DNA of 64,000 bases, taken from NCBI RefSeq assembly GCF_000981585.1, contig NZ_LN831776.1, positions 5,129,187 through 5,193,186 on the forward strand. The letters are read 5' to 3'. Origin of the DNA: Paenibacillus riograndensis SBR5. GTDB lineage: Bacteria > Bacillota > Bacilli > Paenibacillales > Paenibacillaceae. The position numbers and the translations under genes are program-made. The notes beneath the pieces are model-generated. The model did no database searches. It was given only the letters and a program-made list of their open reading frames with translations, and was not told the origin of the DNA. Shown piece after piece: positions 12,013 through 63,813 of the stretch. The number at the start of each line of letters is the position of its first letter. Within the stretch, counting starts at the first letter, position 1.

Positions 12013-13437
12013 CTATGCGTTGACGGCTTCCGCCTTGTAGTTCCAGTCGCGGACATCGGTAAAATGGCCTTTGATCGCAGCCGCAGCCGCCATGGCAGGA
12101 GATACGAGATGCGTGCGTCCGCCGCGTCCCTGACGTCCTTCAAAGTTCCGGTTCGAGGTGGATGCGCAGCGCTGTCCAGGCTGCAGGACATCCGGGTTCA
12201 TGGCCAGGCACATGCTGCAGCCCGCTTCGCGCCATTCAAACCCCGCTTCTGTAAATACTTTGTCAAGCCCTTCCTTCTCGGCCTGCATCTTCACGCGTCC
12301 CGATCCCGGTACCACAATGGCTGTAACCTTATCCGACACCTTATGGCCCTTGGCTACTTCAGCCGCAGCGCGGAGATCTTCAATGCGTCCATTCGTGCAG
12401 GAGCCGATGAAGACATAGTCAATACCGATTTCGGAAATCGGCGTTCCCGGTACCAGGTCCATATACTCAAGCGCTTTTTCAGCCGCTTTGCGTTCGTTCT
12501 CCGTCGTGAAATCCGCCGGGTTCGGCACAGTGGAGGTAATATTCGTACCCATACCCGGGCTGGTTCCCCAGGTTACCTGCGGAATCAATGTTTCCACATC
12601 AAATTCAACAACGGTATCATACTGGGCACCTTCGTCGCTGACAAGCTCCTTCCAGGTTTCAACCGCAGCTTCATAGGCTGCGCCCTGAGGCACATACTGG
12701 CGTCCGCGCAGATAGTTGAAGGTGGTCTCATCCGGAGCGATCAGCCCCGCTCTTGCCCCGCCTTCAATCGACATGTTGCAGACCGTCATGCGTTCTTCCA
12801 TCGACAGCTCACGGATAGCTTCCCCGGTATATTCAATAACATAACCTGTTGCAAAATCAGTGCCGTACTTGGCGATGACACCAAGAATCATATCCTTGGC
12901 GGTTACGCCGGGATTGCGTTTGCCCGTGAAACGGACTTCCATCGTTTTGGCCTTGGACTGCTGCAGACACTGGGTCGCCAGCACATGCTCAACCTCACTG
13001 GTGCCGATCCCGAATGCCAGCGCACCGAATGCGCCATGTGTAGATGTATGGCTGTCGCCGCAGACGATGGTTTTGCCGGGATGAGTCAAACCGATTTCCG
13101 GACCCATAACATGGACTACGCCTTGGTCAATATCGTTCAGGTCGAACAATTTTACGCCAAAATCGCGGCAGTTCTGCGACAATGTATCAATCTGCTGCTT
13201 GGAGATAGGATCGGTAATATTGTAACGGTCCTTGGTGGGAACGTTATGATCCATAGTCGCAAAAGTAAGACCCGGACGGCGCACCTTGCGGCCGCTGAGG
13301 CGAAGCCCTTCAAAAGCCTGCGGGGATGTAACCTCATGCACCAGGTGCAAATCGATGTAAATGATGCTTGGCTTGCCTTCCTCCTGATGGATTACGTGAT
13401 TGTCCCAAATCTTTTCAAACATTGTCTTGTTGCCCAT
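12013..13437 (-). CDS. leuC: 3-isopropylmalate dehydratase large subunit
   Basis: A 474-residue aconitase-family enzyme with a 4Fe-4S cluster, bound by the cysteine in FIGSCTNGR and the pair in [28 protein letters not shown] and the C-terminal [11 protein letters not shown] are further family marks. GAGGTGAAGAC precedes the ATG. A hairpin (13462-13498) and a 19-bp motif at 13554-13572, shared with the promoter of the nearby LysR gene, lie upstream, so control by that regulator is inferred. Confidence 0.97.
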
Positions 13438-16336: not shown

Positions 16337-16579
16337 TGAAACGTGTTGACGGGACCAGTACGAATAGACGATTATCCGCGCTCAGAGAGTGAATTCCGGC
16401 AGGCTGGAAGAATTCACCGCGGTTGTCCGTTCAGAATTCCTATCCCCGAGCGGCCTGCCCCGGCAGGACGGAAACTCCCGTTATGAGAATGAAGTCGGAT
16501 GAACCCTCATCAATGAAGGTGGTACCGCGGAAGTTAACAAGCTTTCGTCCTTTGCTAAGTCTAAGGATGGGGGCTTTTT
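16337..16579 (+). promoter_or_regulatory. Proline T-box riboswitch of proBA
   Basis: The leader has the diagnostic T-box AAGGTGGTACCGCGG at 16516-16530, an AGAGAGTGAATTCC stem-I start near 16384, and a terminator at 16539-16579 whose 14-bp stem (with G-U pairs) is followed by T5. In the stem-I region CCT, a proline codon followed by A, lies at 16439-16441 after GAATT, the position expected for the specifier. Uncharged tRNA-Pro would therefore favour antitermination and proBA expression. Confidence 0.93.
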
Positions 16580-16622: not shown

Positions 16623-17732
16623 ATGACATTGACGACAAGAATCGTGGTCAAAATCGGCAGCAGCTCGCTTACCGGACCTGAAGGCGGGCTGAACCGTAAA
16701 GCGGTTGCTTTCTTTGCCGCTGAAATCGCCGGGCTGCAGAAGGACGGCTGTGAAGTGCTGCTGGTTACCTCCGGAGCTGTAGCTGCCGGATTCCGGGCCA
16801 TCGGATATCCCGCACGCCCCAAGCTGCTGCATGAGAAGCAGGCGGCGGCAGCGGTGGGCCAGGTGATGCTGATGCAGGCCTATCAGGAGGCTTTTGCGGA
16901 ATATGGCATTCCTACCGCGCAGATCCTGCTGACAAGGACCGACTTTTGCAGCCGCCGGGCCATGAATAATGCTGTAATGACGGTAGAAGAGCTGCTCCGG
17001 CAGGGAGCTGTGCCCATATTCAACGAAAATGATACCGTTTCGGTAGATGAGCTGAAATTCGGTGATAACGACACCTTGTCCGCGCTGGTGGCCAATCTCC
17101 TGAAAGCTTCCCATCTTCTCGTTCTGACGGATATGGACGGCTTGTACAGCGGAGATCCGCGCAAGCATCCGGGAGCCACGCGGTATGAGCGTGTTGAGGA
17201 GATTACCCCGGAGATTTATGCCATTGCCGGGGGAGCAGGCTCCAGTGTAGGCACTGGCGGCATGCGCTCCAAGATCGATGCGGCCAAAATCGCCACACGC
17301 GGCGGAGTCCCCGTCTTTGTAGGCAGAGCAACCGAACCCGGCGATTTGCAGCTGGCAGCGGCAGGCACCGGCAAAGGTACCTATTTTGACACCACGCTCT
17401 CTTCCCTGCCGGTTAAGAAACAGTGGCTTGGCTTCATGTCCACCCCGCTGGGCTCCCTGTATGTAGATGAAGGTGCAGTAGAAGCGCTGCTCCATGGCGG
17501 GCACAGCCTGCTGCCGGTTGGGGTTAAGCGGATCGAAGGCAGCTTTCATTCCGGTGATGTGGTAGAGGTCCTTGGTCCGGACGCCAGGCTGCTCGGGCGG
17601 GGAATTGTGAATTACGACGACTCCCAGCTGCGCACGATCCAGGGGCTGCCCAGCAATCAGATTGTGCCGAAGCTGGGCGAGGTTCACCGGCTGGAGGTCA
17701 TCCACCGTGATGAATGGATTACGTTGCGCTAA
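16623..17732 (+). CDS. proB: Glutamate 5-kinase
   Basis: A 369-residue enzyme for the first step of proline synthesis. The amino-acid-kinase domain (residues 1-260) shows VVKIGSSSLT, FNENDTVSVDELKFGDND and GTGGMRSKIDAA; a C-terminal PUA domain follows (LGSLYVDEGAVEALLHGG). ATG with AAGGAAGTGA upstream. Controlled by the proline T-box directly before it and followed after 22 bases by proA. Confidence 0.97.
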   Translation: MTLTTRIVVKIGSSSLTGPEGGLNRKAVAFFAAEIAGLQKDGCEVLLVTSGAVAAGFRAIGYPARPKLLHEKQAAAAVGQVMLMQAYQEAFAEYGIPTAQILLTRTDFCSRRAMNNAVMTVEELLRQGAVPIFNENDTVSVDELKFGDNDTLSALVANLLKASHLLVLTDMDGLYSGDPRKHPGATRYERVEEITPEIYAIAGGAGSSVGTGGMRSKIDAAKIATRGGVPVFVGRATEPGDLQLAAAGTGKGTYFDTTLSSLPVKKQWLGFMSTPLGSLYVDEGAVEALLHGGHSLLPVGVKRIEGSFHSGDVVEVLGPDARLLGRGIVNYDDSQLRTIQGLPSNQIVPKLGEVHRLEVIHRDEWITLR

Positions 17733-61931: not shown

Positions 61932-63485
61932 TCAAGGGGTATATTCATACATGTAATCCTGGTTGATTACCTGTTTTTCTTTAACTTCGGCCGGGAACAT
62001 GGCTTCTGCCATCCGGATCGCCTTCAGCATCGCTTTGGCCTTGTTGACGGTCTCCTCATATTCCTTCTCGGGAACCGAATCCCACACGATCCCTGCCCCA
62101 GCCTGCACATAAGCCCGGCCTTTGCGGAAAATGATGGTGCGGATTGTAATGCAGGAATCCATATTTCCGGAAAATCCGAGATAGCCGATGGCTCCGGCGT
62201 AAGCGCCTCTCGCTTCCCGTTCCAGTTCGGCGATGATTTCCATCGCCCGCAGCTTCGGCGCACCCGATACCGTTCCTGCCGGAAGACAGGAGAGGAAGGC
62301 ATCGAAGAAATCCTTGCCCTCGTCGAGTGTCCCTGACACATTCGAGACGATATGCATCACATGCGAGTACCTCTCGATTTCCATGAAGGAATCGCATTTT
62401 ACCGTACCGAATTTGGATACTCTGCCCAGGTCATTGCGGCCCAGATCCACCAGCATCAGATGCTCTGCCCGTTCCTTCTCGTCCTCCAGCAGTTCAGCGG
62501 CCAGCGCCCGGTCCTGCGCTTCGTTCTCACCACGGGGACGGGTCCCGGCGATGGGACGGGTCTCCACACGGCCTCCGTCCACCTTGACGAGCGCCTCGGG
62601 TGAAGTGCCGACGATGATTTCCTCATCCATTTTCAGATAATACATATAGGGTGAAGGATTCAGCGTCCGAAGCATCCGGTAGACATGCAGCGGAGATACT
62701 TCTGTTTCAATGTGCAGCCGCTGGGACAGCACCACCTGAAAAATATCCCCCGCCCGGATATATTCCTTCGCCTGTTCCACATTGCTGATGTACTGTTCCC
62801 TGGTAAGGTTCGAATGGATCTCGCCCAGTTCAATGTCCTGTGGAATGCTGCGCCGGTTGACGTTTTCCTTCGGTCCTTCCTTCTGAAGCTCTTCAGCCAT
62901 ATTCTCAAGCTTCCGGCTCAGTTCCTCATATCCGGCCCGGATATCGGAATCCGTATCCCCGTCCTTGATATGCAGGTTGCCCACCAGGAGAATCTGCTGT
63001 TTCACATGATCGAATACGATAATGCGGTCGCAGAACATGAAGCGGATATCATCCATATTCAAATCATCGACTGCGTGGGCGGAGAGCTTCTCATAATACT
63101 GCAGCAGATCATAGCCGAAGAATCCGATGGCCCCGCCTGTAAAAGGAGGCATCCCGTCCAGCTTGGGACTGCGGTATGAGCGGAGCAGTGCTTTCAGCTC
63201 CTCGACGGGTTTGCCGGACAGCCGTCTCTTCTCGCCGCCGACCTCTACATGGACTTCGCCTTTTTTGCCGGAGACCATCAGGAAGGGGTCACTGCCGATA
63301 AAAGAATAACGGGCCCATTGTATCCCGCCCTCTACACTCTCCAGCAAAAAGGCCCGGTCCTGCCCGGCAAACCGCTGGAATAACCGGATGGGTGTCTCCA
63401 TATCGGCGAGCAGCCGCGTAACTACAGGGATCAGATTATATTCCCGCGACAGCGACAGCACTTCTTCTACTCTTGGATTCGTCAC
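61932..63485 (-). CDS. trpE: Anthranilate synthase component I
   Basis: 517 residues starting at GTG after AAGGAGG. The feedback motif FLLESVEGG lies near residue 47; the chorismate-binding core has IETEVSPLHVYRMLRTLNPSPYMY-type sequence, ETRPIAGTRPRGE, LMLVDLGRNDLGRV and LPAGTVSGAPKLRAMEII. The glutamine amidotransferase (TrpG/PabA) is not in this operon, as in B. subtilis, where it is shared with folate synthesis. First gene after the leader. Confidence 0.97.
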   Translation of the reverse strand: MTNPRVEEVLSLSREYNLIPVVTRLLADMETPIRLFQRFAGQDRAFLLESVEGGIQWARYSFIGSDPFLMVSGKKGEVHVEVGGEKRRLSGKPVEELKALLRSYRSPKLDGMPPFTGGAIGFFGYDLLQYYEKLSAHAVDDLNMDDIRFMFCDRIIVFDHVKQQILLVGNLHIKDGDTDSDIRAGYEELSRKLENMAEELQKEGPKENVNRRSIPQDIELGEIHSNLTREQYISNVEQAKEYIRAGDIFQVVLSQRLHIETEVSPLHVYRMLRTLNPSPYMYYLKMDEEIIVGTSPEALVKVDGGRVETRPIAGTRPRGENEAQDRALAAELLEDEKERAEHLMLVDLGRNDLGRVSKFGTVKCDSFMEIERYSHVMHIVSNVSGTLDEGKDFFDAFLSCLPAGTVSGAPKLRAMEIIAELEREARGAYAGAIGYLGFSGNMDSCITIRTIIFRKGRAYVQAGAGIVWDSVPEKEYEETVNKAKAMLKAIRMAEAMFPAEVKEKQVINQDYMYEYTP

Positions 63486-63531
63486 TTGGGATGCCTCCTT
63501 AGGTTGTTGGTTTATATTGTCCGAAATACAG

Positions 63532-63557
63532 AAAAACCTCTACCGAAGTAGAGGTTT
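63532..63557 (-). terminator. trp operon leader terminator
   Basis: AAACCTCTAC-TTCG-GTAGAGGTTT on the minus strand, a perfect ten-pair stem with a stable tetraloop, then TTT. It lies 47 bases before the trpE start and is the likely attenuation point. Confidence 0.85.
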
Positions 63558-63720
63558 GTGTAAGTAAGTATATGAAAAAGCGCAAAGGAGCGGCATATCA
63601 CCATCGCAAAAGATGCACTTCTCCCATAGAAAAATCCGGCGATAGCGCAAATCAGCACTAAAGCGTACCTCAAAGAGAACTGCAAACCAAACGGTATGAT
63701 GCCTGGACTCAACTAAAATT

Positions 63721-63778
63721 CTGCACTCTGCTCAACTATACTCAACTCAGCTTAACTAAACTCTGCTTCACTCGGCTA
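63721..63778 (-). promoter_or_regulatory. TRAP-binding site: twelve NAG triplets at a 5-nt period
   Basis: Read on the minus strand from 63778: TAG, GAG, AAG, GAG, TAG, AAG, GAG, GAG, TAG, GAG, GAG and CAG, each separated by exactly two bases. TRAP (MtrB), an 11-subunit ring, binds RNA with (G/U)AG repeats spaced this way when tryptophan is abundant. Nine of the twelve are G/UAG. The array begins at the predicted transcript start and is about 160 bases upstream of the terminator. Confidence 0.85.
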
Positions 63779-63783
63779 ACTAC

Positions 63784-63813
63784 ACTATACATGATGGCTT
63801 TGGTCCATGGCAA
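63784..63813 (-). promoter_or_regulatory. trp operon promoter
   Basis: TTGCCA (63808-63813) and TATAGT (63784-63789) on the minus strand are 18 bases apart, in the 50 bases after the aroH stop. The region 63486-63831 otherwise holds the TRAP site, leader and terminator; the frame at 63512-63712 is not supported as a gene. Confidence 0.7.

Follow-up and report, generated by a model that had tools for sequence, protein, structure and literature searches.

The locus upstream of trpE in Paenibacillus riograndensis SBR5 carries a regular array of NAG triplets, and it raises the question of how such an array could control an operon whose predicted attenuator lies far downstream of it. The question was examined in a stretch of 64,000 nucleotides (the window) and in related loci, designated by L numbers. 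The leader is located on the minus strand and spans from the aroH stop codon (63834-63832) to the GTG start codon of trpE (63485). The trpE gene (61932-63485, minus strand), which encodes anthranilate synthase component I and was named by eye from its sequence and the gene order, is the first gene of trpEDCFBA. A sigma-A promoter was predicted at 63784-63813 (minus strand), consisting of a -35 box TTGCCA (63813-63808), an 18-nt spacer, and a -10 box TATAGT (63789-63784), with matches to the consensus at 10 of 12 positions. TTG and GTATAGTG of this promoter were retained across an alignment of 18 leaders; promoter-like and terminator-like matches were frequent in shuffled sequences too (means of 0.7 and 0.6 per region, respectively).

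The array sits between the predicted promoter and trpE of the trp operon (genes named by eye), at 63721-63778 of the minus strand. The initial annotation had described it as 12 minus-strand NAG triplets with exact 5-nt spacing, nine of them G/UAG, and our count confirmed this description: read from 63778, the triplets are TAG GAG AAG GAG TAG AAG GAG GAG TAG GAG GAG CAG, and nine of the 12 are G/TAG. Its further claim that the array lies beyond chance also held. The second-longest 5-nt NAG run on either strand of the window was 5. Across both strands of 100 simulated 64-kb windows (first-order Markov), no run exceeded 5, a length reached in 11 of them, and the longest run in 2000 simulated 120-nt strings generated from the dinucleotides of the array itself was 7. 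Two further TAGs, at 63787 and 63782, precede the run; they are probably outside the RNA, because the TAG at 63787 is part of the predicted -10 box TATAGT. As the predicted +1 lies near 63778-63776, the array does begin at about the predicted transcript start, as had been claimed, and the first triplet may be incomplete in the RNA. Downstream, three extra triplets (TAG GAG CAG at 63715, 63710, and 63705; 63703-63715, minus strand) follow the 12-run after an 8-nt step and were found in only some close relatives. The sequence AATTTTAG lies directly 3' of the array. A leader peptide, MGEVHLLRW (9 codons, ending with TGG TGA), is readable here; it was discarded as a candidate, as by eye it is not kept in close relatives.

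A search of the genome for mtrB, which had been proposed as a check of the TRAP assignment, gave one match with 135.8 bits (cut-off, 21.3), located 10.7 kb upstream of trpE. The cluster was read by eye from the open reading frames as spoIVA-hbs-mtrB-hepS-menG-...-hepT-ndk-cheR-aroC-aroB-aroH-trpE, an order from mtrB to trpE that resembles the one in B. subtilis. No folE was seen beside mtrB, and additional menaquinone-type genes were noticed by eye within the mtrB-trpE cluster. The latter are mqnA-, ubiX-, and ubiA-like genes (L002, 8701-11060, upstream of the window's end; by eye), which read like an insertion of menaquinone genes of the futalosine type. Within the host family, mtrB was found in 394 of 394 genomes searched, and it was found in 210 of 299 genomes drawn from the class, a sample that includes part of the same family. 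The MtrB protein of this genome has F32, E36, K37, D39, K56, and R58 intact, the residues given as RNA-binding in a section of PMC3184956. A motif search recovered MtrB from 67 of the 80 named loci, and all 67 copies kept the RNA-contacting residues; as the motif itself fixed F32, E36, and K37, this comparison could reveal variation only at D39, K56, and R58. For TrpP, no match was obtained in this genome, and Anti-TRAP gave no match in 60 genomes, in a search run without a positive control.

Subsequently, the array was compared among relatives, which were collected by way of the nearby aroC (the best 80 of 153: one Neobacillus, one Saccharibacillus, and the rest Paenibacillus). Two of these, L017 and L081, yielded no aroH-trpE leader, and the other 78 leaders together with that of this genome gave a set of 79. 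All 79 showed at least nine NAG in the 90 nt past a -10-like box, a loose criterion since the box was picked to maximise the NAG count. When chains of at least nine NAG with 4-6 nt steps were counted on both strands of the 80 named loci (1,652,265 bases), 60 chains were obtained, of which 57 fell in the trp-leader interval, two in trp leaders belonging to offset loci, and one elsewhere; the last, at 14652-14695 of L080, is the sole such chain outside trp leaders in these loci. The run of 12 was kept in L003, L004, L006, and L007; L008 and L009 showed runs of 11, and a 4- or 6-nt step was present inside the arrays of L010, L011, L012, and L019-L024. Such steps are compatible with a TRAP site, because these sites allow spacers of 2-3 nt. 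The chain count was 17 in this leader, including the two promoter TAGs, and ranged from 10 to 22 across L003-L026. In some relatives carrying mtrB the arrays were weaker, split, or broken, and arrays split into blocks yielded short or misplaced chains of down to five triplets. The initial annotation had named two findings that would refute it, absence of mtrB from the genome and loss of the 5-nt period in close relatives. The first did not occur and the second occurred only in part: an array with a period of about 5 nt was kept, and the exact 12-fold phasing was not conserved. The array is thus conserved and the perfect 12 is not, and the exact triplet number and phasing seen in one genome do not represent a constraint shared by the clade. 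No NAG chain of at least eight was detected near the 8 glutamine-amidotransferase matches, which should include pabA/trpG; the region in L108 had one weak chain of five only.

The B. halodurans trp leader with its 12-subunit TRAP resembles the present system in having more than 11 triplets and Lys15 in TRAP. The TRAP of this genome has Lys15, Glu71, and Ser72, as opposed to Asp71 and Thr72 of the 12-subunit protein as given in part of PMC3184956, where the TRAP of a Paenibacillus sp. is also suggested to be a possible 12-mer. A match between exactly 12 triplets and a 12-mer ring was considered and dropped, because the relatives differ and the TRAP residues are mixed. As far as sequence can show, the array is a TRAP site, and by itself it is another case of the known type of site. 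TRAP control of the trp leader, the central claim of the initial annotation, is well supported at the sequence level by the presence of mtrB and the retention of the array in relatives; the layout, in which the attenuator lies about 145-163 nt beyond the array, had been missed.

This predicted attenuator is a hairpin, AAACCTCTAC-TTCG-GTAGAGGTTT, followed by TTCTGTATTT (63534-63557, minus strand), and similar hairpins are present in relatives. The Shine-Dalgarno-like AAGGAGG of trpE follows at 63494-63500 of the same strand. Between the extra triplets and the region of the attenuator lies an intervening domain of 119 nt (63584-63702, minus strand), whose sequence was poorly conserved as judged from alignment and folds. 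The distance from array to attenuator is 145 nt when counted from the final triplet of the 17-member chain and 163 nt when counted from the end of the 12-run. Among the 75 Paenibacillus-type leaders in which a terminator was called, 74 had a gap of 116-338 nt, and some of these values are rough because split arrays give short or misplaced chains; the remaining leader, L069, had a gap of 69, for which the terminator pick is probably wrong. The terminator was uncalled in four of the 79 leaders (L005, L040, L078, and L082). For other members of the family, 10 of 13 loci were measurable and had gaps of 73-430 nt; L136, L137, and L146 had no array by our rule, with broken arrays visible, and L144 is apparently identical to L075 and does not count as a further case. 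Outside the family, 10 of 20 loci from the class were measurable, nine lacking a trpE start and L135 lacking an array by rule. The attenuator was 14-36 nt past the array in nine of these and 81 nt past it in L119, which looks like a mis-picked hairpin.

The B. subtilis trp leader shares with the present leader an array of (G/U)AG with 2-3 nt spacers, mtrB, the trpEDCFBA order, and an attenuator before trpE; there, an antiterminator competes with the attenuator. According to a section of PMC3913778, it has 11 triplets, a 5' stem-loop, and a length of 203 nt, of which the attenuator occupies +108 to +133. In contrast, the attenuator in P. riograndensis lies 145-163 nt beyond the array and has a long-range partner, and the leader does not show the compact B. 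subtilis-type layout, with the attenuator within a few tens of nucleotides of the array. A 5' stem-loop has no room here, because the array begins at about the predicted start of transcription. By eye, the short arrays of L136, L137, L147, and L148 seem to be preceded by a small inverted repeat rich in GC, which may be akin to the B. subtilis 5' stem-loop.

If the attenuator is so distant, how could it be coupled to the array? The array was found to be complementary to approximately 55 nt before the attenuator plus the attenuator 5' arm. The element next to the hairpin, GCGCTTTTTCATATACTTACTTAC (63560-63583, minus strand), complements the 3' half of the array, as indicated by folds, alignment, and the swap test described below. 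Consensus folds computed separately for this clade and for the P. amylolyticus-type clade both placed the 3' portion of the array in a helix with a pre-attenuator element. In the swap test, arrays and segments were exchanged between leaders, which makes it independent of folds. With the segment from -55 to +7 of the attenuator arm, native combinations in 37 leaders had a mean of -34.4 kcal/mol versus -29.0 kcal/mol for swapped ones. After removal of row and column means, native pairs were better by 5.3 kcal/mol, a value reached in 0 of 20000 permutations. Controls in the same 37 leaders gave p values of 0.96 for an upstream segment, 0.67 for a segment downstream of the terminator, and 0.09 for the reversed sequence. 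Subsets of less similar leaders were also used; 27 and 14 leaders gave 0 of 20000 each, and eight leaders gave p 0.0026, with p 0.045 for the reversed control in that subset. Independence at the level of clades was addressed through these thinned sets. With two leaders the swap test had no power.

When the array was divided, the strongest co-variation was observed between its 3' half and [-55,-15] (p 5e-5), and the 5' half co-varied with the arm-containing [-15,+7] (p 0.007); the crossed combinations gave p 0.59 and 0.77. The order of pairing is thus antiparallel, the 3' half going with [-55,-15] and the 5' half with [-15,+7]. No co-variation was seen when the 5' half was tested with the segment as a whole (p 0.30) or for the attenuator arm alone (p 0.74), the latter result being limited by the likeness of most arms. 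For divergent arms (the CTCCTGC, CCTTCATGC, and CATCTCTGC types), a matching stretch was often seen by eye in the array, which we take as a lead only in view of the result with the arm alone. Changes on both sides of the helix numbered three in this clade versus 2-6 with slid partners, and one in the P. amylolyticus-type clade versus 0-1, so neither clearly exceeded the slid partners. Against mononucleotide shuffles, the duplex energy of this leader was not significant (z 0.3), and values of about -3 SD were found in several of the P. amylolyticus-type leaders, among those listed; as a test for this clade the shuffles were set aside as uninformative. In the P. riograndensis leader itself, the pairing across the attenuator arm is weak. 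The array, mtrB, their conservation, and the co-varying complementarity are what was observed here, and the distant attenuator seems to be coupled to the array by long-range pairing. Separately, P. amylolyticus-type leaders have a strongly conserved, structured stretch directly 3' of the array (L041, approximately 12760-12860), in which hairpin pairs vary on both sides; it was not seen in the clade of the window.

The folding of the leader was then considered. When the RNA was folded to just past the 5' arm, arm-array pairing was 0.71 in this leader and 0.17-0.99 over the 37 leaders. For 26 of the 37 leaders, the 5-nt units of the array were also shuffled; the mean pairing in these 26 was 0.75 with the native order versus 0.49 after shuffling, and the native order was higher in 25 of them. 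Once complete, the hairpin of this leader wins at equilibrium with the array blocked or free (0.97 and 0.98), and the same holds for nearly all 37 leaders; a gain in hairpin probability of more than 0.2 on blocking was seen in only four of the 37 (L005, L032, L035, and L056). In the equilibrium fold of this leader, the long-range helix and the terminator coexist. Equilibrium folding thus failed as proof of a switch for this leader, and any switch would be kinetic, because the finished hairpin wins either way.

These results as a whole point to a TRAP-controlled attenuator of trpEDCFBA in which array and attenuator are far apart and linked by a long-range antiterminator, and we consider this reading probable. 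From them we infer binding of TRAP, a switch, and its direction. When tryptophan is scarce, TRAP would be off the array, and the free array would pair with the approximately 55 nt ending in the attenuator 5' arm; the arm would be occupied while its partner is transcribed, and the polymerase would read on. When tryptophan is plentiful, the TRAP ring would take the triplets as these emerge and block the long-range pairing, so that the hairpin at 63557-63534 would fold and transcription would end before trpE. The intervening domain of about 120 nt may give TRAP time to bind; the long spacer is suggested as a delay because pausing in the B. subtilis leader gives TRAP time to bind, as described in part of PMC12288461.

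Other readings were weighed against this one. TRAP bound to the array could stop the polymerase directly just downstream, leaving the distant hairpin as a minor or backup terminator. A section of PMC3913778 reports that B. subtilis TRAP terminates in vivo without the attenuator if an A+U-rich stretch follows its site; AATTTTAG occupies that place here, and at equilibrium the remote hairpin is formed in both states. However, a hairpin at a distance recurs genus-wide, and co-variation ties the array to the segment preceding this hairpin, which would be needless for a mere backup. Direct termination is judged unlikely. The complementarity might instead merely hide the array, as a shield that TRAP must invade, without opposing the terminator. 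The strongest co-variation, which links the 3' half of the array to the 40 nt upstream of the arm (p 5e-5), would fit a shield, as would the coexistence of helix and terminator in the equilibrium fold, but the 5' half shows co-variation with the segment that includes the arm (p 0.007), and arm pairing is higher with the native order in 25 of 26 leaders. We hold a pure shield to be quite improbable.

It is very improbable that TRAP acts chiefly on translation, by favouring an RNA fold in which the Shine-Dalgarno sequence of trpE is masked. One predicted fold does pair AAGGAGG with upstream sequence when the three extra triplets are blocked along with the array, and such a mechanism exists in B. 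subtilis according to part of PMC12288461; this fold was absent, however, when only the 12 triplets were blocked. That the array is a functionless low-complexity repeat is hardly conceivable: we found no evidence in its favour, and the array stands before trpE genus-wide, mtrB is present, and the simulated 64-kb maximum was 5.

The preferred reading, a remote attenuator opposed by the array itself, would constitute a new variant as judged from its sequence features, the distant attenuator combined with co-varying long-range complementarity; the complementarity is well supported and the mechanism unproven. Among the titles and abstract openings of the open-access papers listed, none dealt with the Paenibacillus trp leader or with a remote TRAP attenuator; this is weak evidence of absence, because comparative work on trp regulation exists in subscription journals. 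More tentatively, and with somewhat more doubt than belief, the TRAP leaders of Paenibacillaceae may form a distinct remote-attenuator class, in which a terminator 100-300 nt away would be controlled purely by RNA refolding, most of the array would serve as the antiterminator, and the large closed domain would function as a delay or as a second element of control. In B. subtilis, whether TRAP stops the polymerase directly or merely refolds the RNA is an open point, as stated in part of PMC3913778. Site and attenuator are close neighbours there, and a natural leader in which they are separated by over 100 nt would allow these two roles of TRAP to be distinguished.

T-box leaders resemble the present one in being long and in having an attenuator before an amino-acid operon. 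The T-box model (RF00230) gave no match in this leader, and a T-box in the trp leader was rejected for this reason; L041 and L043 gave only weak sub-threshold matches to other families. No relatives of trpE were found in viral contigs. Elsewhere in the genome, 25 T-box matches were obtained, five of them above the gathering score and none in the trp leader. A T-box-like leader is present at 16337-16555 of the window (plus strand; 77.1 bits, below the gathering score of 93), directly 5' of an open reading frame that looks by eye like proB (16623-17732) and is followed by a proA-like one.
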